A stretch of DNA of 15,290 nucleotides from contig JABDPK010000055.1 in assembly GCA_013042795.1 (NCBI GenBank), positions 1-15,290 on the forward strand, in the 5' to 3' direction. This DNA is from Saprospiraceae bacterium (GTDB taxonomy: Bacteria > Bacteroidota > Bacteroidia > Chitinophagales > Saprospiraceae). Both the position numbers and the translations under genes were made by a program. Of the stretch, positions 927-9,666 are shown piece after piece; position 1 is the first letter of the stretch, and the number at the start of each line of letters is the position of its first letter. The notes under the pieces are model-generated. The model ran no database searches. It was not told the origin of the DNA and saw only the letters and a program-made list of their open reading frames with translations.

Positions 927-1763
927 TTAGATGAGGTTCAAAGAGTGTTTCAGAGAATATTTTGCAAGCAGATAAGCCTTACGACGATTCTTTATTCTGA
1001 CTCTTTTGCTTAATATTTTATCGAAACTCATCCTTTTGATCTTCTGGAATAGATTATAGTAGAAAATGTAGGCGATATAAACACCAAATCTTGAAGCCCT
1101 CGGTAATTTTCTGATACCCCGCAGACCATCGGAAAAGTCTTTCTCGATGTCTGCTTCAATGATTTTCTTTTCATTATCATTGAAAGTCTGCAGATTAACG
1201 CCAGGAAAATAAGTCCTCCCCTTCCCGTAATAATCATCTTTTATGTCTCTGAGAAAATTGATTTTCTGGAAGGCAGAGCCTAAAGAACGCGCACTGGATT
1301 CCAATTCATTATATAACTCAGGTTTCTTACTGCAAAAGACTTTTAAACACATTAAACCTACAACTTCTGCAGAACCATAGATATACTTTTCATATAATTT
1401 ACGGTCATAGTTAATATCCTCAAGATCCATTTCCATTGAATAGAGAAAAGCATTTATATGGTCTTCTTTTATACCATATTCATTGACCACTTTCTGAAAT
1501 GATTCCAGAACAGGATTGAGACTTATTCCGGTAGATAATGCATTAAAGGTGTCCTTTTTAAAATTTTCAAGCAGTTCGCGCTTATTATAGTCGTGAAAGG
1601 TGTCAACAATTTCATCAGCAAATCTTACGAATCCATAAACAGCATAAATAGGATCTCGCAATTCTTTTGAAAACAAACGTATACCAAGGGAAAATGAAGT
1701 GCTATACCTCTTGGTAATCAGCTTGCTGCACTCAAGGCATACTTTATGGTACATTTGATTCAT
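927..1763 (-). CDS. crtB: Phytoene synthase (squalene/phytoene synthase family)
   Basis: Condenses two geranylgeranyl-PP molecules to phytoene, the first committed step of C40 carotenoid synthesis, at the inner membrane. The 278-residue protein has the usual length for bacterial CrtB. Seen in the sequence: the first aspartate-rich motif in FVRFADEIVD (D50 and D54), a YGSAEVVGLMCL stretch (129-140), and the second aspartate-rich region NFLRDIKDDYYGKGRTYFP with D173 and D177, which bind the Mg-diphosphate. The ATG at 1763 lies six bases after the crtI stop, so the two genes are almost certainly one transcript. A second ATG three codons in (1754) is an alternative start. No cyclase, hydroxylase or ketolase gene follows, because the next unit downstream is the rRNA operon. 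The end product of the pathway therefore cannot be read from this window. The family is certain; activity on phytoene rather than squalene-type substrates is inferred from the crtI partner. Confidence 0.93.
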   Translation of the reverse strand: MNQMYHKVCLECSKLITKRYSTSFSLGIRLFSKELRDPIYAVYGFVRFADEIVDTFHDYNKRELLENFKKDTFNALSTGISLNPVLESFQKVVNEYGIKEDHINAFLYSMEMDLEDINYDRKLYEKYIYGSAEVVGLMCLKVFCSKKPELYNELESSARSLGSAFQKINFLRDIKDDYYGKGRTYFPGVNLQTFNDNEKKIIEADIEKDFSDGLRGIRKLPRASRFGVYIAYIFYYNLFQKIKRMSFDKILSKRVRIKNRRKAYLLAKYSLKHSLNLI

Positions 1764-1769
1764 CTATGG

Positions 1770-3242
1770 CTATTTATTATCATTAATTACTTCATTTGCT
1801 ACAACCTGCCCTGAAATTACAGACGGTGGTAAGCCTGGACCAGGCGTTGTCAGCTGACCAGTAAAGTACAAATTAGATATTTTTTTACTTTTTATTGAAG
1901 GCTTAAGGATGGCAGTCTGAAATAAAGTATTAGCCAGTCCGTATGCATTTCCTTTAAACGAATTATAATAACTTTTGAAATCCCTGATGCCAAAATGTCT
2001 TTTATAAACGATATGTTCAGAAATATCCACTGATGTGGCATCCTTGATTCTTTTTATAACAATATCAAGATATTGATCCGTTCTTTCAGATGTCTCGCCC
2101 GGCAAATCCGGAGCCAGGGGAATCAATACGAACAGATTCTCGTGACCTGGTGGTGCTACAGTATTATCTGTTCTCGAAGGGCAACAAACATAAAACAGAG
2201 GGTCCTCCGGCCATTCCGGGTGATGGTATATCTGTCCCGCATGTTTGTCGAAGTCGGCATCAAAGAATAAATTGTGATGTTCCAGATTCTTCACCTTCCT
2301 GTCAAGACCTAAAAAGAACAACAAGGATGATGGAGCCATCTTTCTGCCTTCCCAATATTTATTATCATAATTTGCTAATTCGGGACTTACTATTTCCTGA
2401 TCCACATGATGGTAATCTGCATTTGCAATTACCATATCTGTTTCATAGTCTGATTTATCTGTAATGACATGGCTTATGTTTCCATTATTGTATTTAAATG
2501 ACCTGACTGCTTCGTTGAATTCAAATTTCACACCTAGAGATGTCGCAATACGATAAAAGGCTTCAGCAATCTTATACATACCTCCATCAGGATACCAGGT
2601 TCCCAGTTTAAGGTCAGCATAATTCATCAGGCTATACAAGGCAGGGGTGTCAGCAGGAGCAGCCCCCAGGAAAAGAACCGGGAATTCAAGCAGCTGCTTT
2701 AATTGAGGATTCGTTACAACCTTGCCTATCTCATTAGAAATTGATTTAAACAGTTGGAGCCTGAAAAAATTTCTGAACACCCTTATATCGGCAAACTCAA
2801 ATATTGACTGCCCTGGCTTCCATACAAACTCCGACATACCTATATCATACTTTTCTTTTGCATGATTAATGAATTTCTCCAGTTTCAAACCGCTACCTGG
2901 CTCAATCTTGTCAAACATTTCTTTAAGCTCTCCAAAATCAGCAGGAATATCCATTTTTCCCCGATCATCAAACCACACTCTATAAGAAGGATCGAGTCTC
3001 CTGAGCTCATAGAAATCTGAGGATTTAAATCCGAATCTATTATAGAAATTTTCAAAAACTTCAGGCATCCAATACCAGCTTGGACCCATATCAAATCGAA
3101 AACCCTTTTCTTCAAAAACATTGATACGACCCCCGGGCTTATCATTTTTTTCAATCACCGTAACATCATAACCTGCTTCTGCCATAACACATGCTGCTGA
3201 CATTCCTGCTATTCCTGACCCGATAATGCTGACTCTTTTCAA
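1770..3242 (-). CDS. crtI: Phytoene desaturase (CrtI-type carotenoid oxidoreductase)
   Basis: FAD-dependent desaturation of phytoene toward lycopene or neurosporene, working with CrtB next door. The N-terminus has the dinucleotide-binding fold VSIIGSGIAGMSAACVMAEAG (GxGxxG at residues 8-13) followed by EKNDKPGGRINVF. The C-terminus has the CrtI signature GQLTTPGPGLPPSVISG with a second FAD contact. The length of 490 residues fits the family. I chose the TTG at 3242 as start. The open frame extends upstream to an ATG at 3317, but those 25 codons are written by the hairpin and U-tract of the rpsA terminator (3282-3312), and the family normally begins just before the GxGxxG fold. The stop is six bases before crtB. 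No promoter of the TAnnTTTG type is visible between the terminator and the TTG, so the drive for this pair is unclear; leakage through the terminator or an atypical promoter are options. Confidence 0.92.
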   Translation of the reverse strand: MKRVSIIGSGIAGMSAACVMAEAGYDVTVIEKNDKPGGRINVFEEKGFRFDMGPSWYWMPEVFENFYNRFGFKSSDFYELRRLDPSYRVWFDDRGKMDIPADFGELKEMFDKIEPGSGLKLEKFINHAKEKYDIGMSEFVWKPGQSIFEFADIRVFRNFFRLQLFKSISNEIGKVVTNPQLKQLLEFPVLFLGAAPADTPALYSLMNYADLKLGTWYPDGGMYKIAEAFYRIATSLGVKFEFNEAVRSFKYNNGNISHVITDKSDYETDMVIANADYHHVDQEIVSPELANYDNKYWEGRKMAPSSLLFFLGLDRKVKNLEHHNLFFDADFDKHAGQIYHHPEWPEDPLFYVCCPSRTDNTVAPPGHENLFVLIPLAPDLPGETSERTDQYLDIVIKRIKDATSVDISEHIVYKRHFGIRDFKSYYNSFKGNAYGLANTLFQTAILKPSIKSKKISNLYFTGQLTTPGPGLPPSVISGQVVANEVINDNK

Positions 3243-3281
3243 TTTATTTCTTTCATTTTGGAACTCCACTTGAATGTAAAT

Positions 3282-3312
3282 AAAAATGCCCGGATAAATG
3301 TTTATCCAGGCA
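3282..3312 (-). terminator. Intrinsic terminator of rpsA
   Basis: Inverted repeat TGCC-c-GGATAAA, tg, TTTATCC-a-GGCA at 3287-3312, followed on the minus strand by five T (3282-3286) and further T-rich sequence. It starts 26 bases after the rpsA stop codon and lies inside the upstream extension of the crtI frame. This argues that the longest crtI open frame is not the real one. Confidence 0.8.
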
Positions 3313-3338
3313 TTCAATTATTCTAAAGGATGAGCAGA

Positions 3339-5792
3339 TTATTTTCTACCTCCATCCAGTTCGTCTTGTAGTATTTTCAATGCATCCCAATCACCTTTTG
3401 CAGCAAGTGAAGCCTGTTGTGGCCAGGTTTCAGGATTATGCATTTTGTATCTAGGTCCTGCTTCAGCTAAAATTTCTTTCAATTTTTCAACATCTGCATT
3501 GGCCATGTCCTCAAATGTAGCAACACCTCCATTTGCCATAATCTCGGCAATTTTTGGTCCGATACCTTCGATTTTCCTGAGATCATCTTTGTCATCCTTT
3601 TTTGTTGAGGCCTTTTTGGCTTTAGCTTTCTTCGCCGGCTCTTCAGCAGGCACTTCTGCTACAGTTTCAGCAGTTTCTTCGGCCACAGCTTCTACAACTG
3701 GCTCCTTCACTTCCTCAACAACTTTTTCTGCTACCGGTTCAGCTTTATCTTCAGCAACTTCTTTTGCTTTCTTTTCAGCCACTTCTTCCACTTTCTTTTC
3801 AACTACCGGTTCTTCTTTCTTCTTCTTAGGAGGAGGTACCGGCGCATCAAAAGCTCCTTTTAATTCAGAAAATACACCTAAGTCACCAAGTGTCGTGCCT
3901 TCTACCTTCGTATTCTGCCTTTTAACAGCTGATCTTGTCTTTCTTCTTTCCTGATCCCTCTCTCTTCTCACCTCGCCTTCTGCTTCTCGTTTGATATCTT
4001 CAAGATATCTCAGATGCGAAACAATAATCCTCTTGTCATCTCTATTGAATTCAATAACTTTTACTGTCAGGATTTCATCTACTTCAGCATTCTGACCATT
4101 TTCTTTCTTAATATGTTTGAAAGGTGCAAAAGCTTCAAGTCCATAAGGCAACTGTACAATAGCTCCACGATCTTCTCTCTTTATTACCGTAGCCTCATGA
4201 TATGAACCAACCGGGAATACATTCTCAAAAGTATCCCATGGATTCTCTTCCAGTTGTTTATGTCCAAGCGAGAGTTTTCTGCTTTCCTTATCTACTTCCA
4301 GAATGACAACATCGATATTGTCCCCTACTTTTGTGAATTCAGAAGGATGAGAATATCTTTTTGTCCATGAAAGATCAGAAATGTGTACCATACCACCTAC
4401 GCCTTCCTGCAGTTCAACGAATACACCATAAGGTGTCAGGTTCTTGACTTCCCCGGAATGTTTAGAGTCTACTGGGTACTGATCAATAACCTTAACCCAA
4501 GGATCATCCAGTAACTGTTTTATACTTAATGACATTTTCCTTTCTTCCCTGTCTATAGTCACAACTTTAGCTTCAAACTCCTGTCCAAGGAAGAAATATT
4601 CCCTTGCATTCACAGGCTGATTACTCCAGGTTACTTCTGAAACGTGGATCAGGCCTTCAACGCCAGGTATGATCTCGAGGAATGCTCCATAATCTTCGAT
4701 ATTGACAATCTTACCTTTAATTGATGAGCCTTCAACAACATCCTGAGGTAATACTTCCCATGGGTGCGGCTGAAGCTGCTTCAATCCAAGAGAGATACGT
4801 TTTTTGTCTTCGTCAAAATCAAGAACAACAACATTCAGTTTTTGATTGAGCTCAAGAACTTCCTGTGGATGATTGATCCTGCCCCAAGAAATATCAGTGA
4901 TATATAACAAGCCATCAACACCACCAAGGTCCATAAAGGCTCCGAAGTCTGTGATATTCTTCACCAAACCTTCAAGTACCTGTCCTTTTTCAAGTCCTGA
5001 TATAATGGATTCTCTTTGTTCTGCAAGATCACTTTCAATCAGTGCCTTATGCGAAACAACAGCGTTTTTGATCACTTCATTGATCTTTACAACCTTGAAC
5101 TCCATTGTTTTACCTACATATGAATCATAATCAATAATAGGCTTGATATCGATTTGTGAACCAGGAAGGAATGTTTCAAGACCTCCAACATCCACAATCA
5201 GTCCTCCCTTCGTCTTACTGATTACACTTCCCTTAATGATCGTTCCGTTTTCAAAGGAATCAACAAGGCTATCCCAGGCATTGATCAACTTAGCTTTTCT
5301 CCTCGATAATTGAAGCTGACCTCTGATATCTTCCTTTGCTTCAATGTATACTTCAACTTTATCTCCTACTTTAAGATCAGGTGTATCTCTGAATTCAGTC
5401 AGAGGAACCAGGCCATCGGATTTATAATTGATGTCAAGTAATACATTACCATCGCTGATAGCGGATACTTTTCCGGACACCAATTCAAATTCTGAAATAC
5501 TGTTGAGTGACTTGTCGTAATCAGCCAGATAATCATTAATCTCTTCTTCACTGTACGCAAGTGTGTGTTTGTTTCCTATAGACCAGTCATAATCATCATG
5601 CGGAGATTCAGCGAGTTTGGAATTCTCATCTTCGATTTCGATTTCGACTTGTTCAGGAGTTTCAGAATCACTTTTTTCAGTTGTTGATTCTGCAGTTTTT
5701 TCTTCAGTAGATTCCTCTATGGGCGTCTCAACGACTTCTTCAGTCGGAGTTTCTACCGGTTTTTCATTTTCAAGATTCTTTTCGTCAGACAT
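3339..5792 (-). CDS. rpsA: 30S ribosomal protein S1 with C-terminal helix-hairpin-helix domain
   Basis: Binds mRNA on the 30S subunit and helps load it. The 817-residue protein contains, in order: an acidic, Glu/Thr/Ser-rich tail (1-95); six S1 RNA-binding domains at about 103-165, 183-252, 270-340, 355-427, 443-515 and 529-597; a basic stretch (600-630); a long Lys/Glu/Ala/Val low-complexity linker (655-735); and a C-terminal domain (736-817) opening with RKIEGIGPKIAEIM, a helix-hairpin-helix. Domains 3-5 are the most canonical (FGAFMDLGGVDGLLY, YGAFLEIIPGVEGLIHVSE). E. coli S1 is about 557 residues and has neither the acidic head nor the last domain. I start at ATG 5792 (MSDEKN). The open frame reaches 5861, but that codon overlaps the likely -7 promoter box at 5859-5866, so it would not be in the mRNA. 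The same C-terminal domain occurs on S6 in this window. Confidence 0.94.
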   Translation of the reverse strand: MSDEKNLENEKPVETPTEEVVETPIEESTEEKTAESTTEKSDSETPEQVEIEIEDENSKLAESPHDDYDWSIGNKHTLAYSEEEINDYLADYDKSLNSISEFELVSGKVSAISDGNVLLDINYKSDGLVPLTEFRDTPDLKVGDKVEVYIEAKEDIRGQLQLSRRKAKLINAWDSLVDSFENGTIIKGSVISKTKGGLIVDVGGLETFLPGSQIDIKPIIDYDSYVGKTMEFKVVKINEVIKNAVVSHKALIESDLAEQRESIISGLEKGQVLEGLVKNITDFGAFMDLGGVDGLLYITDISWGRINHPQEVLELNQKLNVVVLDFDEDKKRISLGLKQLQPHPWEVLPQDVVEGSSIKGKIVNIEDYGAFLEIIPGVEGLIHVSEVTWSNQPVNAREYFFLGQEFEAKVVTIDREERKMSLSIKQLLDDPWVKVIDQYPVDSKHSGEVKNLTPYGVFVELQEGVGGMVHISDLSWTKRYSHPSEFTKVGDNIDVVILEVDKESRKLSLGHKQLEENPWDTFENVFPVGSYHEATVIKREDRGAIVQLPYGLEAFAPFKHIKKENGQNAEVDEILTVKVIEFNRDDKRIIVSHLRYLEDIKREAEGEVRRERDQERRKTRSAVKRQNTKVEGTTLGDLGVFSELKGAFDAPVPPPKKKKEEPVVEKKVEEVAEKKAKEVAEDKAEPVAEKVVEEVKEPVVEAVAEETAETVAEVPAEEPAKKAKAKKASTKKDDKDDLRKIEGIGPKIAEIMANGGVATFEDMANADVEKLKEILAEAGPRYKMHNPETWPQQASLAAKGDWDALKILQDELDGGRK
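3342..3587 (-). other. Helix-hairpin-helix tail domain, copy on S1
   Basis: Encodes residues 736-817 of S1. The helix-hairpin-helix core IEGIGPKIAEIMANGG is followed by a second conserved block GPRYKMHNPETWPQQASLAA and a short amphipathic end helix. Matched by hand to the S6 tail, about 36 of 77 positions are identical with no gaps. HhH domains generally bind nucleic-acid backbone through the GIGPK hairpin; its role on a ribosomal protein is not known to me. Confidence 0.85.
3546..3572. repeat. Near-identical 27-base stretch, copy 1 of 2 (in rpsA)
   Basis: Plus-strand text beginning GGCAATTTTTGGTCCGATAC and ending CTTCGAT matches 8613-8639 at 26 of 27 bases. It encodes the helix-hairpin-helix core of the S1 tail. 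The identity is higher than the surrounding domain requires, pointing to shared ancestry of the two tail copies, strong codon constraint or gene conversion. Confidence 0.7.
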
Positions 5793-5858
5793 AATAGAAC
5801 CAGGTTTGTATGCCCTGATCAGCATCAAGGCAGTGGTTAATAAATTAAAAAAGTGGCG

Positions 5859-5889
5859 CAAAGGTATTATTATTTCTTGAATAGTGAAA
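5859..5889 (-). promoter_or_regulatory. Probable rpsA promoter
   Basis: On the minus strand TACCTTTG (5859-5866) matches the TAnnTTTG -7 consensus exactly. Nineteen bases upstream is TTTC (5886-5889), one base from the TTTG -33 box, so the upstream element is weak. Initiation would fall near 5852, giving a leader of about 60 bases before ATG 5792. Confidence 0.55.
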
Positions 5890-5976
5890 CCCCTGACTCA
5901 TATCTAAAGATTCCTCTTTCAAAATTCATTTTCAAAAATTGTATTTTGTATTTTTTCCGTTCAAAGACAATTAATT

Positions 5977-7641
5977 ATGAATAGTGACAGGCCCTGGTTA
6001 AAACAATACCCAAGTGGTATTGCCGCCAACATAGATCCCGATATTTATCCAACGGTAGCAGAATACATCAAAGACAGGTGTAATCAGTTCGGAACACGCA
6101 AAGCCTTTTCATCCATGGGAAAGGAATTAAGTTTCAAACAACTTGACCAGTTAAGTACCCAATTTGGTGCCTATCTTCAGAGTCGGGGATTGGTTCCAGG
6201 TGATAAAATAGCCATCATGCTGCCCAATTTGTTGCAGTATCCAATTGCAACTTTTGGTGCAATCAAAGCAGGATTGATTGTAGTAAATACAAATCCCCTG
6301 TATACACCACGTGAAATGGAACATCAATTTGTGGACAGTGAGGTCAAAGCGATCCTTATACTGGAGAATTTTGCTGCAAATCTTGAAAAGATTCTCCCAA
6401 GTACATCAATCAAGACAATCATAATAACATCGATTGGTGAAATGCTTGGTGTCAAGGGTAGTGTAGTAAACTTAGCTGTGAGACATTTAAAAAGGATGGT
6501 CCCTAAGTATAACTTGGCCAATACGGTCAATATGAAAGATGCCCTGGCCCAGGGTAAGAAGTTCAAAATAGAACCATTTGAGTCTACACCTGATACAGTC
6601 ATCGTGCACCAATACACAGGAGGTACAACAGGAGTCAGTAAAGGTGCTATGCTTACCAACAGGAATATTGTTGCAAACATGCTACAGATCAGGGCATTTA
6701 TAAATCCTTATATGGAAGGCAATGATGAACAGATTATTCTTGCACCTCTTCCATTGTATCACATTTTTGCTTTTACAGTGAATTGTATGGCAACCATAGA
6801 CCTGGGTGCCTTGTCTGTACTCGTTCTGAATCCAAAAGACCTTTCCACGGTCGTAAAGGAATTTGGTAGGTATAAAATCACCGGAATGACCGGGGTTAAT
6901 ACATTGTATAATGCCTTGCTGAATGATACTGGATTTCAATCAGCGGAATGGTCTAATATGTCATTTGTAGCTGCCGGTGGAACAGCACTTAAAAAGAGTG
7001 TCGCTGAAAAATGGAAGGAAATGACCGGACAGGATATTACAGAAGGTTATGGAATGACGGAAGCTTCACCTGTTGTCTCTTCTAATCCACATGGTAAAAC
7101 AGTGCTTGGTACTGTAGGAATTCCAGTACCTTCTACTGATCTTAGAATAGTTGGTGAGAAAGGTGAAATAATGCCGTTCGGACAGCGAGGCGAAATACAA
7201 GTCAAAGGACCACAGGTCATGAAAGGCTACTACAACAAACCCGAAGAAACAGCACAGACCATAACTTCTGATGGGTGGCTGAATACTGGCGATATCGGTA
7301 TTATAGATGAGCAAGGATACCTGTCTATCGTAGACAGGAAAAAGGATATGATCCTTGTATCCGGATTTAATGTATACCCGAATGAGGTTGAAGATGTGGT
7401 TTCAGCACATCCAAAGGTTCTTGAAGCGGCTGCTATTGGTATAGAAAGTGAAAAGTCAGGAGAGTGCGTCAAAGTATTTGTCGTTAAAAAAGACAAATCA
7501 CTTACATCAGACGAACTGATCCAGTTTTGCAGGGAAAATCTTACAGGTTACAAAGTACCTAAAGAAGTGGAATTCCGAAAAGAACTCCCCAAAACCAATG
7601 TTGGAAAAATATTAAGAAGAAAACTTAAAGAAGAAAGCTGA
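5977..7641 (+). CDS. fadD: Long-chain fatty-acid-CoA ligase (FadD-like)
   Basis: Activates long-chain fatty acids to acyl-CoA through an acyl-adenylate, at the cytoplasmic face of the inner membrane. It belongs to the ANL adenylate-forming superfamily. Visible motifs are the P-loop-like YTGGTTGVSKGA (213-224), YGMTEASP (358-365, containing the adenylate-binding T/E pair), LNTGDIG, the hinge DRKKDMILVSGFNVYPNEVE (453-472) and the catalytic lysine in TNVGKILRRKL (K544). The N-terminus (WLKQYPSGIAANIDPDIYPTVAEY and PNLLQYPIATFGAIKAG) resembles E. coli FadD closely. The length of 554 is near the usual 560. The start ATG has AATT directly before it and no Shine-Dalgarno. The gene is divergent from rpsA and ends four bases from the rplI stop. 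No neighbour of the beta-oxidation pathway is in the window. The chain-length preference cannot be read from the sequence. Confidence 0.93.
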   Translation: MNSDRPWLKQYPSGIAANIDPDIYPTVAEYIKDRCNQFGTRKAFSSMGKELSFKQLDQLSTQFGAYLQSRGLVPGDKIAIMLPNLLQYPIATFGAIKAGLIVVNTNPLYTPREMEHQFVDSEVKAILILENFAANLEKILPSTSIKTIIITSIGEMLGVKGSVVNLAVRHLKRMVPKYNLANTVNMKDALAQGKKFKIEPFESTPDTVIVHQYTGGTTGVSKGAMLTNRNIVANMLQIRAFINPYMEGNDEQIILAPLPLYHIFAFTVNCMATIDLGALSVLVLNPKDLSTVVKEFGRYKITGMTGVNTLYNALLNDTGFQSAEWSNMSFVAAGGTALKKSVAEKWKEMTGQDITEGYGMTEASPVVSSNPHGKTVLGTVGIPVPSTDLRIVGEKGEIMPFGQRGEIQVKGPQVMKGYYNKPEETAQTITSDGWLNTGDIGIIDEQGYLSIVDRKKDMILVSGFNVYPNEVEDVVSAHPKVLEAAAIGIESEKSGECVKVFVVKKDKSLTSDELIQFCRENLTGYKVPKEVEFRKELPKTNVGKILRRKLKEES

Positions 7642-7645
7642 TTTC

Positions 7646-8092
7646 TTATTCCTTGATCAATTCGAAACTGATTTCTTCTGTAACCTCCGGGTGGAATTTG
7701 ATTGTTGCCGTATATGTCCCGATTTCTTTCGGTTCTTCAGCAAGTTCAATTTTCTTTCTTTCGATCTCTACTTCGAAATTTTCCTTCAACGCGTTAGCGA
7801 TCTGAATATTGGTAACTTTCCCGAAGATCTTTCCTGAAGTACCGGATTTTACACCGATTTGTACAGATTGACCTTTGATCTTGGCTGCCATTTCCCTGTA
7901 ATCTTCAATCCTGGCATTTTCTTTAGCTGCCACGTCTTCAAGGATCTTTTCCAGTTTCTTTTTATTTGTGTCATTAGCGATCACACCAAAACCCTGGGGA
8001 ATAAGATAGTTTCTTCCGAATCCAGGTTTCACATTTACGATATCATGCTTATATCCGAGATTGTCGATAGATTGCAATAATATAATTTCCAT
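7646..8092 (-). CDS. rplI: 50S ribosomal protein L9
   Basis: Binds 23S rRNA domain V near the base of the L1 stalk. Full length at 148 residues with the family layout: N-terminal rRNA-binding domain MEIILLQSIDNLGYKHDIVNVKPGFGRNYLIPQGFG (1-36), long connecting helix (about 41-75), and the C-terminal domain beginning near QSVQIGVKSGTSGKIFGKVT. Last gene of rpsF-rpsR-rplI, 13 bases after rpsR. The stop codon is four bases from the end of the convergent fadD gene, and I see no strong terminator between them. Confidence 0.97.
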   Translation of the reverse strand: MEIILLQSIDNLGYKHDIVNVKPGFGRNYLIPQGFGVIANDTNKKKLEKILEDVAAKENARIEDYREMAAKIKGQSVQIGVKSGTSGKIFGKVTNIQIANALKENFEVEIERKKIELAEEPKEIGTYTATIKFHPEVTEEISFELIKE

Positions 8093-8105
8093 GGAATTAA
8101 CTATT

Positions 8106-8372
8106 TTATTTTAATAAATCTGTTACGTAAGGAAGCATAGCCAAGTGTCGTGCTCTTTTAACAGCAACAGCCACTTTCTTCTGATACTTTAATGAATTTC
8201 CAGTTATCCTTCTTGGCAATAACTTGCCCTGAGGGTTTACAAACTGGATCAAGAAATCAGGATCTTTATAATCAATATGCTTGATTCCAAATTTTTTGAA
8301 CCTGCAGTATTTCTTGTTGTCTTTACCTATGTTGGGATTGCTTAAAAACTTTATATCGTCACGTGAAGCCAT
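8106..8372 (-). CDS. rpsR: 30S ribosomal protein S18
   Basis: Forms a heterodimer with S6 on the platform of the 30S subunit. It has 88 residues. The conserved core is seen as YCRFKKFGIKHIDYKDPDFLIQFVNPQGKLLPRRITGNSLKYQKKVAVAVKRARHLAMLPYV. It lies 12 bases after rpsF and 13 bases before rplI, so it is cotranscribed. There is no ssb or priB gene between rpsF and rpsR, unlike the arrangement in proteobacteria and many firmicutes. In the Flavobacterium johnsoniae ribosome, S18, S6 and S21 have been described as holding the 16S anti-Shine-Dalgarno tail, which is relevant to the enlarged S6 here. Confidence 0.97.
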   Translation of the reverse strand: MASRDDIKFLSNPNIGKDNKKYCRFKKFGIKHIDYKDPDFLIQFVNPQGKLLPRRITGNSLKYQKKVAVAVKRARHLAMLPYVTDLLK

Positions 8373-8384
8373 AGTCTTATATTT

Positions 8385-9041
8385 TTATTCCTCTTCAGAA
8401 GAAGCAGGACTAATTTTACCAATTAATTTATCTTTTAGTGTATTGAGTTCGGCCCATTTCCCTGCTGCTGCAAGTTGGGATTGCTCTGCCCAGGTCGCCG
8501 GATCATGAGTAACATAACTTGGCCCTCCTTTAGAAAGGATGCTTTTAAGGTCCTCATAGGAACTTGCTGCCAGTTTCTCATAAGATTTGATTCCCGCAGT
8601 ATTTAATAATTGGGCAATTTTGGGTCCGATACCTTCGATGAGTGTCAAATCCTCTTTTTTCACCTCTTCTTTAGCTACAGGACCGCTACTCACGGTTTTG
8701 GGCTTTTTCCCTATTCTGCCGTTTCTGTTGTCATCATTATACTTGACACCGTACTTGTCCAACTTGACGGAAAGAAATCTCATGATTCTTTCGTCTCGTC
8801 GCATTGCCAATTCTATTTTGGGAATCACTGCTCCGGTTTCGGTTGTGAACTCTATTGATTTATACACACCGGAGTTTCTCCTGTTGATGGGATATGCCAG
8901 TTGTCTGAGACCCATTTCGTCTACATGAACTATCTGGCATCCGTCATTTGTTAAAAGCTTCTCGTAAGCTTTTCCTACCGTTTGTATTTCATCACCTGGT
9001 AGTACGGGATCGATGATGAACGTAATCTCGTATTGTCTCAT
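8385..9041 (-). CDS. rpsF: 30S ribosomal protein S6 with C-terminal helix-hairpin-helix domain
   Basis: Platform protein that binds 16S rRNA together with S18. Residues 1-100 are an ordinary S6 fold: MRQYEITFIIDPVLPGDEI at the start, LRQLAYPINRRNSGVYKSIEF in the middle, and RRDERIMRFLSVKLDKY closing the RNA-binding part. A charged linker (101-129) leads to an extra domain at 130-206, LIEGIGPKIAQLLNTAG then GGPSYVTHDPATWAEQ, the same helix-hairpin-helix module as on S1. A short acidic end SPASSEEE follows. The total of 218 residues is about twice a typical S6 (around 100-135). The frame is unbroken, so the fusion is genuine and not an assembly joint. First gene of its operon, with a good promoter at 9080-9110 and a leader of only about 30 bases, too short for the S6:S18 autoregulatory RNA known in other phyla. 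Confidence 0.95.
   Translation of the reverse strand: MRQYEITFIIDPVLPGDEIQTVGKAYEKLLTNDGCQIVHVDEMGLRQLAYPINRRNSGVYKSIEFTTETGAVIPKIELAMRRDERIMRFLSVKLDKYGVKYNDDNRNGRIGKKPKTVSSGPVAKEEVKKEDLTLIEGIGPKIAQLLNTAGIKSYEKLAASSYEDLKSILSKGGPSYVTHDPATWAEQSQLAAAGKWAELNTLKDKLIGKISPASSEEE
8424..8654 (-). other. Helix-hairpin-helix tail domain, copy on S6
   Basis: Encodes residues 130-206 of S6 and aligns end to end with S1 residues 736-812. Shared positions include IEGIGPKIA, LKxIL, GPxYxxHxPxTWxxQ, LAAxGxW and LxDxL. At the DNA level the GIGPKIA codons are nearly identical in the two genes (3546-3572 and 8613-8639). Confidence 0.85.
8613..8639. repeat. Near-identical 27-base stretch, copy 2 of 2 (in rpsF)
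   Basis: Partner of 3546-3572 with a single T/G difference. It encodes the same IEGIGPKIA hairpin in the S6 tail. Confidence 0.7.
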
Positions 9042-9183: not shown

Positions 9184-9666
9184 ATGAAGCAATTACTTCA
9201 GTTTTTATTTATAGTCACAGTGATGATTTCGGCATGCAAAAAACCTGCACAACCACTGGAAGAGAATGGTTATAAATATTTTGGAGAAAAAATTGACAAA
9301 GTCGAAGCAATCAGTTTCAATGATCTTATGTCAAAAATAGAAACACAGGATTCGGTATACACTCAAGTTGAAGCCCAGGTTGAAGCTGTATGCCAGACCA
9401 AAGGATGCTGGATGAACCTGGTTGATGCCAATAATGTTGAAGGCGCATCCATATTCGTGAAGTTTAAAGATTATGGCTTTTTCATGCCAAAAGATATTGC
9501 TGGCCAAAAAGTTATCGTGGAAGGTGTTGCTTATAAGGAAATCACAACAGTTGATGAATTAAAGCATTATGCTGAAGATGAGGGATTGAGCCAGGAAGAA
9601 ATAGATGCAATCACAGAACCTGAAGAAGAGTTGAAGTTTATGGCAAACGGAGTTATCCTGCTTTAG
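9184..9666 (+). CDS. DUF4920 family lipoprotein
   Basis: A 160-residue protein with a hydrophobic signal peptide and a lipobox ending ISAC, so Cys18 should be lipidated after cleavage by signal peptidase II. The charged KK after it does not predict a specific membrane. The mature part contains CQTKGCWMNL (Cys70 and Cys75) and FKDYGFFMPKDIAGQKVIVEGVAYKE, which I recognise as the DUF4920 pattern, an OB-like small beta domain of unknown function. The two conserved cysteines could bind a metal or form a redox pair; this is inference. The ATG is preceded by CAATTTCAGA with no Shine-Dalgarno. No clear TAnnTTTG promoter is visible in the 142 bases shared with the divergent rpsF promoter. It is convergent with the BioD-like gene, with 27 bases between the stops and no hairpin. 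Confidence 0.85.
   Translation: MKQLLQFLFIVTVMISACKKPAQPLEENGYKYFGEKIDKVEAISFNDLMSKIETQDSVYTQVEAQVEAVCQTKGCWMNLVDANNVEGASIFVKFKDYGFFMPKDIAGQKVIVEGVAYKEITTVDELKHYAEDEGLSQEEIDAITEPEEELKFMANGVILL

Follow-up and report, generated by a model that had tools for sequence, protein, structure and literature searches.

The 15,290-nucleotide stretch analysed here (the window) is part of contig JABDPK010000055.1 of a Saprospiraceae bacterium (assembly GCA_013042795.1) and contains the genes of the ribosomal proteins bS1 (rpsA) and bS6 (rpsF). Both proteins end in a copy of the same domain of about 80 residues, called the tail below, which follows the conserved body of the protein after a linker. The two genes and their parts were located at the following window positions.

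3339..5792, minus strand: bS1 (rpsA), 817 amino acids from the likely ATG; PF00575 in six stretches, NF004953 at 798.5 bits (cut-off 720)
3591..3911, minus strand: S1 linker, residues 651-757 of the open reading frame (ORF), rich in E, K, A, V and P, from the last S1 domain to the tail; boundary set by eye
3351..3590, minus strand: S1 tail domain, a helix-hairpin-helix followed by an HxPxTWxxQ...W...LQ half
8385..9041, minus strand: bS6 (rpsF), 218 amino acids; PF01250 at 77.5 bits (cut-off 27), TIGR00166 at 66.6 bits (cut-off 42.9)
8658..8756, minus strand: S6 linker, residues 96-128
8418..8657, minus strand: S6 tail domain, residues 129-208
8388..8417, minus strand: C-terminal end of S6, ...SSEEE

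The S1 ORF runs from 5861 to 3339 on the minus strand and encodes 840 amino acids when read from a TTG, and the ATG at residue 24 (window position 5792) is the likely start codon. The S6 gene extends to 9041, past the end given for it in the initial annotation of this DNA. Residues 758-837 of the S1 ORF (735-814 counted from the ATG; window 3590..3351) were aligned with residues 129-208 of S6 (window 8657..8418). The alignment was ungapped and had 38 identities in 80 positions. Its BLOSUM62 score was 206, whereas 1000 shuffles averaged 33 and did not exceed 65. S1 and S6 thus carry one shared C-terminal domain, as the initial annotation had reported from about 36 identities in 77 positions and with slightly different bounds. 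Its description of the two hosts as unrelated and of both linkers as charged was also confirmed. Each host scored above the cut-offs of its own family; the S1 linker (651-757) has 21 K/R and 27 D/E (net -6), and the S6 linker (96-128) has 9 K/R and 4 D/E (net +5). Both tails passed the Pfam HHH_5 model (PF14520, cut-off 27) with 34.6 bits for S1 and 31.6 bits for S6, and this match spans only approximately the first 40 of the 80 tail residues. No nuclease domain was found by Pfam in the window S1 or S6. At the DNA level the two tails are identical at 139 of 240 positions and are therefore not a recent copy of one another. A recent conversion event between the genes rpsA and rpsF was rejected on the basis of this low identity and because each of the two tails groups with tails from the same host protein in relatives. 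The tail most identical to that of the window S1 belongs to an L27 protein (71%). The EEE end of S6 was also seen in other fetched ribosomal hosts, with counts of 10/22 for L27, 6/11 for S16, 5/5 for S6 and 0/19 for S1.

The first half of the tail (about 40 residues) is a canonical helix-hairpin-helix, and the second half, HxPxTWxxQxxLAAxGxWxxLxxLQ, is distinctive and equally conserved. The same columns (E10, G11, G13, P14, K15, W58, Q61, W70 and L73) were conserved in 40 ribosomal and 46 other tails, K15 being kept in 88 and 91% of them. Identical conserved positions, whatever the host, argue for a single ligand. Among solved structures, the best match was chain O of 8yy9 (E 1.2e-10, profile positions 1-72), which is protein-O of the RC-LH1 complex of Dinoroseobacter shibae, the C-terminal domain of which matches the tail profile. 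The next was 9wqv, a 41-kD subunit of complex I (E 2.9e-7). These were followed by helix-hairpin-helix stretches of RadA, Topo V and DNA polymerase beta, which share the hairpin pattern over about the first 30-43 residues; the second half is unmatched in them and the E-values are borderline (0.0015 to 0.05). The tail can also occur in tandem, with three copies on one L27 (L166) and three (P0171) or five (P0128) on RNA polymerase beta'.

At least 12 ribosomal proteins were found as hosts, namely S1, S2, S6, S16, L4, L13, L15, L17, L19, L20, L21 and L27, the eight L proteins being those of the 50S subunit. S2 and L21, which the initial annotation had named beforehand as hosts that would be telling, are both on the list. 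The non-ribosomal hosts include RNA polymerase beta', ATP synthase gamma, NuoI-like, NrfD-like, CBM48 and phasin-like proteins and membrane coiled-coil proteins. Hosts were assigned to classes from sequence patterns and by visual inspection; the labels 'ActC', 'phasin-like' and 'KEV' are those of this analysis, and the label 'TM' for membrane hosts reflects hydropathy alone. Twenty-two host proteins were scanned with Pfam, two from the window and 20 fetched, of which both window proteins and seven of the fetched ones are ribosomal. On 10 fetched hosts it identified S16, L27, S2, L17, L21, S1, NrfD, P-domain and AMPK1_CBM, and one protein was without a clear family. In the whole genomes of four close relatives we found 7-9 tail copies each (31 of the 33 matches were fetched). 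S1, S6 and S16 were tailed in all four and L27 in three; the other hosts were KEVEVIKEV-repeat coiled coils (4/4), NrfD-family membrane proteins of the ActC-like kind (2/4) and a P-domain protein (1/4). A search of a protein database with the tail only, in which 119 proteins were listed, added L20, L15, L13 and L4. By a count made by eye from the Pfam column, 52 of these 119 proteins were ribosomal, or 28 of 95 when S6, the host of the query, was left out. The best 120 of 2835 proteins in another tail-only search contributed L19 (P0316), ATP synthase gamma (P0293) and a NuoI-like protein (P0262). P0293 scored above the ATP synthase gamma cut-off (300 vs 194.45) and P0262 under that of NuoI (69.2 vs 113.05). 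The RNA polymerase beta' hosts P0128 and P0171 were among the best 120 of 218 matches, and a further host, P0112, has the FAD-binding domain of molybdopterin dehydrogenases. The phasin-like hosts gave no phasin match outside the tail region. No tail match was obtained in phages at E 1e-5, and plasmid records gave three matches, all of them Riemerella rplU. An HU-like start of some KEV coiled-coil hosts, which had offered a lead to the nucleoid, was dropped after NCBIfam gave E 0.021 in one of four such proteins scanned and Pfam gave no match in four.

The tail is clearly enriched on ribosomal proteins. Sixteen genomes of the family with a match, taken in list order after genome G001, were enumerated to E 1e-12, which yielded 83 matches, each in a fetched ORF. 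These corresponded to 72 host ORFs, of which 22 were ribosomal (L27 12, S1 6, S16 3 and S6 1), compared with about 0.9 (0.92) expected for random genes, on the assumption of 54 ribosomal genes and a density of 850 genes per Mb. Neither this expectation nor the binomial p of 2e-24 takes account of kinship, and the p value is not to be read literally. The remaining ORFs were 16 membrane, nine CBM48-type, eight KEV coiled-coil, four phasin-like, two P-domain and two ActC-like hosts and nine unassigned ones, among which are contig-edge fragments. At least one ribosomal tail was present in 14 of the 16 genomes. According to the initial annotation, occurrence on many unrelated non-ribosomal proteins, with no enrichment on ribosomal ones, would speak against a ribosomal module; many such hosts do exist, but the enrichment is evident. 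The position of the tail is also constant. In all 158 strong-match ORFs of the 170 fetched ones pooled here, the last copy ended within 35 residues of the stop codon, and in the 63 ribosomal ones within 14 residues.

The distribution of the tail was examined in samples of the family, order and phylum, each of which includes G001. Among the matches listed, 52 of the 61 sampled genomes of the family of G001 had one at E 1e-12. The counts were 18 of 40 genomes in the order sample at E 1e-3 and 12 of 148 in the phylum sample at E 1e-12. Nine of these 12 phylum genomes have a ribosomal tail and three have a tail on a membrane protein only. The ribosomal hosts in the nine were S1/S6/S16/L27, L27, S1/L27, L21 (three genomes), L17 and S2 (two genomes). 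S2 is tailed in G169 and G173, and L21 in G123 and G146. Two genomes have a single tail even at E 1e-3, on L17 in G045 and on L21 in G085. In G001, L27 is tailed and the adjacent L21 is not, whereas in a Riemerella record L21 is tailed and the adjacent L27 of 85 amino acids is not. The tagged proteins differ by lineage and by subunit, and the tagging site therefore seems interchangeable. A control search with the L21 model gave matches in 12 of 14 genomes, none above the cut-off; these matches are presumably L21 cores.

The closest relatives of the window S6 are found in Saprospiraceae metagenome-assembled genomes, the best being 73% identical over the whole protein. Of 64 loci that have a frame for S6, 18 had the tail; some of the search patterns lie in the tail, which biases this set toward tails. 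Among 29 tail-bearing S6 homologues, the mean pairwise identity was 0.77 for the core, 0.53 for the linker (residues 96-127) and 0.64 for the tail, and the mean gap fraction of the tail was 0.00. The tail is under protein-level purifying selection that is less strict than that on the core: pN was lower than pS in 10 of 10 pairs of five genes, with pN/pS ratios of 0.25-0.49 for the tail, 0.13-0.24 for the core and 0.23-0.61 for the linker, at a pS near saturation. By identity the tail is stricter than the linker; by pN/pS it is not clearly so, as the ranges overlap. In a tree of 170 tails, built on only 79 columns and with a bootstrap that had not settled, host labels clustered above chance, yet 58 label changes were required against a minimum of 16. 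The window S6 tail fell in a group of five S6 tails (support 100/92) that joins L17 tails (99/86), and 12 other S6 tails formed a separate group (100/99). In the AU test, a single S6 clade was not rejected (p 0.247) and a single L27 clade was weakly rejected (p 0.0345). To judge from the tail sequences, several independent captures of the tail by its hosts are likely.

We tentatively propose, giving it somewhat less than an even chance, that the tail is a particle-addressing tag with a common ligand, probably nucleic acid. On this view the tail is an independent helix-hairpin-helix module that sits at the C-terminus behind a charged or low-complexity linker, and subunits of large, abundant complexes would have acquired it again and again. 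Ribosomes would be foremost among these; also tagged would be RNA polymerase, ATP synthase, the respiratory and photosynthetic complexes, proteins that seem to belong to storage granules, and coiled coils anchored in the membrane. One ligand would serve all tails and any exposed chain end of a particle would suffice, hence S1, S6, S16 and L27 in one lineage, L21 in another and S2 or L17 elsewhere. The GIGPK hairpin would hold nucleic acid, either nucleoid DNA or RNA, and tagged particles would be kept close to the nucleoid or to one another. Repeated capture, a common ligand and an addressing role are what we infer, and nucleic acid as the ligand is the most conjectural part. It is our first choice because the hairpin is canonical and has a conserved lysine, because the linkers of the KEV coiled-coil, CBM48 and phasin-like hosts are basic (+6.8, +7.9 and +11.0 per 40 residues, respectively) and because of hits reported for Halomonas PhaC2 synthases. 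In PMC8686332, one Halomonas PhaC2 synthase has a hit to COG3743 and that of another Halomonas species a hit to histone H1-like protein, with positions not stated in the passage concerned.

Several observations weigh against this proposal. The second half of the tail is as well conserved as the hairpin, and we know of no nucleic-acid precedent for it. In a non-random sample of 172 pooled ORFs (170 fetched and two from the window), the mean net charge of the tail on ribosomal hosts was -6.1 for S1, -5.9 for S16, -5.1 for L27, -4.0 for L21, -3.5 for S2, -10 for one L17 and -0.8 for S6, and on CBM48, phasin-like and KEV coiled-coil hosts it was +1.8, +1.5 and +0.1. S1 and S16 also have acidic linkers, and the linkers of the other membrane hosts average only +0.5. 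Acidic tails together with acidic S1 and S16 linkers are poorly suited to charge-based binding of DNA or RNA. The C-terminal position also has an exception, a divergent N-terminal copy on an S1 (L119, genome G025, 1462-3117), which is a profile match unreported by Pfam. Finally, according to PMC12079452, the related domain of protein-O was left untraced in the RC-LH1 map.

Nearly as likely as a nucleic-acid tag, and likewise doubtful on its own, is docking between proteins, in which the tails would bind each other or one hub and the tagged machines would cluster or sit at the tailed membrane coiled coils. A tail is found on a non-ribosomal protein in 15 of the 16 enumerated genomes (the exception, G196, has it on S1 and L27), and the hydropathy-defined membrane proteins form the largest host class (16/72). 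The acidity of the tail on most ribosomal hosts, as opposed to its near-neutral or basic character on CBM48, phasin-like and KEV hosts, fits docking, as do the tandem copies and the aromatic second half, which could serve as a protein-binding surface. However, no hub was found, and G045 and G085 have one tail each, so that, provided these assemblies are complete, no second tail seems to be required as a partner; the same two genomes give no support to the idea that tails on different proteins of a genome must pair with each other. We regard it as improbable that the tail has little or no function at the ribosome, being either a spreading module kept by highly expressed genes that tolerate additions at their ends, or a cap for folding, solubility or stability. 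The functionally scattered hosts, the patchy presence (the phylum sample and the S6 loci given above) and the overlapping pN/pS of tail and linker agree with such a view. A neutral insert should decay, though, and the S6 tail is free of gaps, exceeds the linker in identity and has pN below pS in every pair; the same few ribosomal proteins recur, and every host group compared retains the key residues.

The initial annotation had favoured a site-specific device of the 30S subunit, acting in mRNA recruitment without Shine-Dalgarno (SD) pairing or joining S1 to the platform. S1, S2 and S6 all lie near the mRNA exit, and all three are hosts. Sequestration of the anti-SD tail at S6, S18 and S21 is described as a Bacteroidia-wide trait in the extract of PMC9976891, where the addition of Flavobacterium johnsoniae S1 roughly doubled the amplitude of initiation on one mRNA that lacks an SD; nothing in that extract concerns the tail. 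The host range does not bear out a role of this kind. The tail is not confined to proteins of the platform or mRNA exit, as would be expected of a 30S initiation element: nine of the 12 ribosomal hosts are 50S proteins or S16, 15 of the 22 ribosomal tails in the enumerated genomes are on L27 or S16, and the non-ribosomal hosts keep the same residues. S18, which belongs to the same pocket, has no tail, and 136 of the 148 phylum genomes are without a strong match even though the sequestration is described for Bacteroidia as a whole. G045 and G085, with their only tails on L17 and L21, exclude the linking of S1 to S6 as a general role. Twelve ribosomal and scattered non-ribosomal hosts therefore make a role at a single ribosomal site improbable; as a general role this reading was rejected, and in any form we consider it very improbable.

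The kind of tail described here is already present in databases, and its S1 and S6 hosts and the broad ribosomal pattern appear to be new. The C-terminal parts of the NCBIfam models PRK12278 (L21), PRK12311 (S2), PRK12373 (NuoE) and PhasinPhaH match the tail domain, so two of the modelled hosts are ribosomal. PRK12278, PRK12373 and PhasinPhaH match the window S6, and PRK12311 matches related tails. The window hosts differ from those of the models, and only the tail matches, far under the whole-protein cut-offs; PRK12278 gave 25.2 against a cut-off of 281 on S6, in the tail region alone, as expected for a different host. We take these models to be largely alphaproteobacterial and to have once been worded 'unknown domain fusion'. 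Some homologues bear the JGI name 'predicted flap endonuclease-1-like 5' DNA nuclease', and one of them (P0104) has 147 amino acids and an N-terminal hydrophobic stretch. This name presumably denotes COG3743, in part on the basis of PMC8686332. In section 2.3 of PMC12079452 the protein-O domain is noted also on NuoE, on subunit E of ATP synthase and on an 'endonuclease', and its function is described as obscure. These hosts belong to energy complexes, and ribosomal proteins are unmentioned in that section. A ribosomal protein with a helix-hairpin-helix is also represented by eL32 (PDB 9l94; NCBIfam PRK12766), which we take to be archaeal. Its likeness is weak (E 0.095, residues 7-44), and it differs in that the stretch lies near the N-terminus, covers the first half only and is on a different host; the tail of P0293 gave 35.9 bits with PRK12766. 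The L21 of F. johnsoniae (7jil; 147 amino acids) aligns over core and linker and has no tail. In our literature search, from which many papers in subscription journals were absent, no account of the domain on S1, S6 or a wider ribosomal set was found.

To our knowledge, ribosomal proteins rarely gain whole folded domains. Here, at least 12 of them, from both subunits, have the same domain at the same end, as do RNA polymerase beta' and ATP synthase gamma. Such a host pattern calls for a common job beyond the known ribosome cycle, for example placement of particles in the cell. A wider form of the addressing proposal, which we consider unlikely, is that a shared helix-hairpin-helix address with one ligand, the nucleoid or a membrane-anchored scaffold, holds the gene-expression and energy-converting machines in a fixed arrangement inside the cell, and that it arose anew in different lineages on different subunits of these machines. 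If true, this common address would cover ribosomes, RNA polymerase, ATP synthase, respiratory and photosynthetic complexes and storage granules. Ribosome structures from species without ribosomal tails, such as F. johnsoniae (7jil), would miss the domain.

Further observations were made on individual records. The 102-kb Riemerella record in the plasmid collection (NZ_CP081938.1, L245) contains murA, murB, miaA, rplU and rpmA; it is probably a chromosomal fragment. The tail-rich protein P0175 is filed at NCBI as 'Thrombospondin-3b [Nymphon striatum]', probably through bacterial contamination of an animal assembly. P0181, which is related to the RNA polymerase beta' records with tandem tails, is named Planctomycetota. 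At L075, L178, L196 and L208, genes for KEVEVIKEV-repeat coiled coils and a P-domain gene are close together, each with a tail at its end. Shorter, divergent helix-hairpin-helix tails, with about 40-60 positions matched, were seen on L27 (L106-L110), on NrfD/ActC-like proteins (L182-L184) and on membrane coiled coils from other genomes of the order and phylum. One of these L27 proteins (L107) is from G025, the genome of the S1 with the N-terminal copy.

In the window, two ribosomal protein genes without a tail follow rpsF.

8106..8372, minus strand: bS18 (rpsR), PF01084, immediately 3' of rpsF
7646..8092, minus strand: bL9 (rplI), PF01281 and PF03948, immediately 3' of rpsR

A gene for a DUF4920 protein (PF16267) lies at 9184-9666 in divergent orientation to the S6 gene. 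As read by eye from the translations, a phytoene/squalene-synthase-like gene stands beside a phytoene-desaturase-like gene at 927-3317, which points to carotenoid synthesis.

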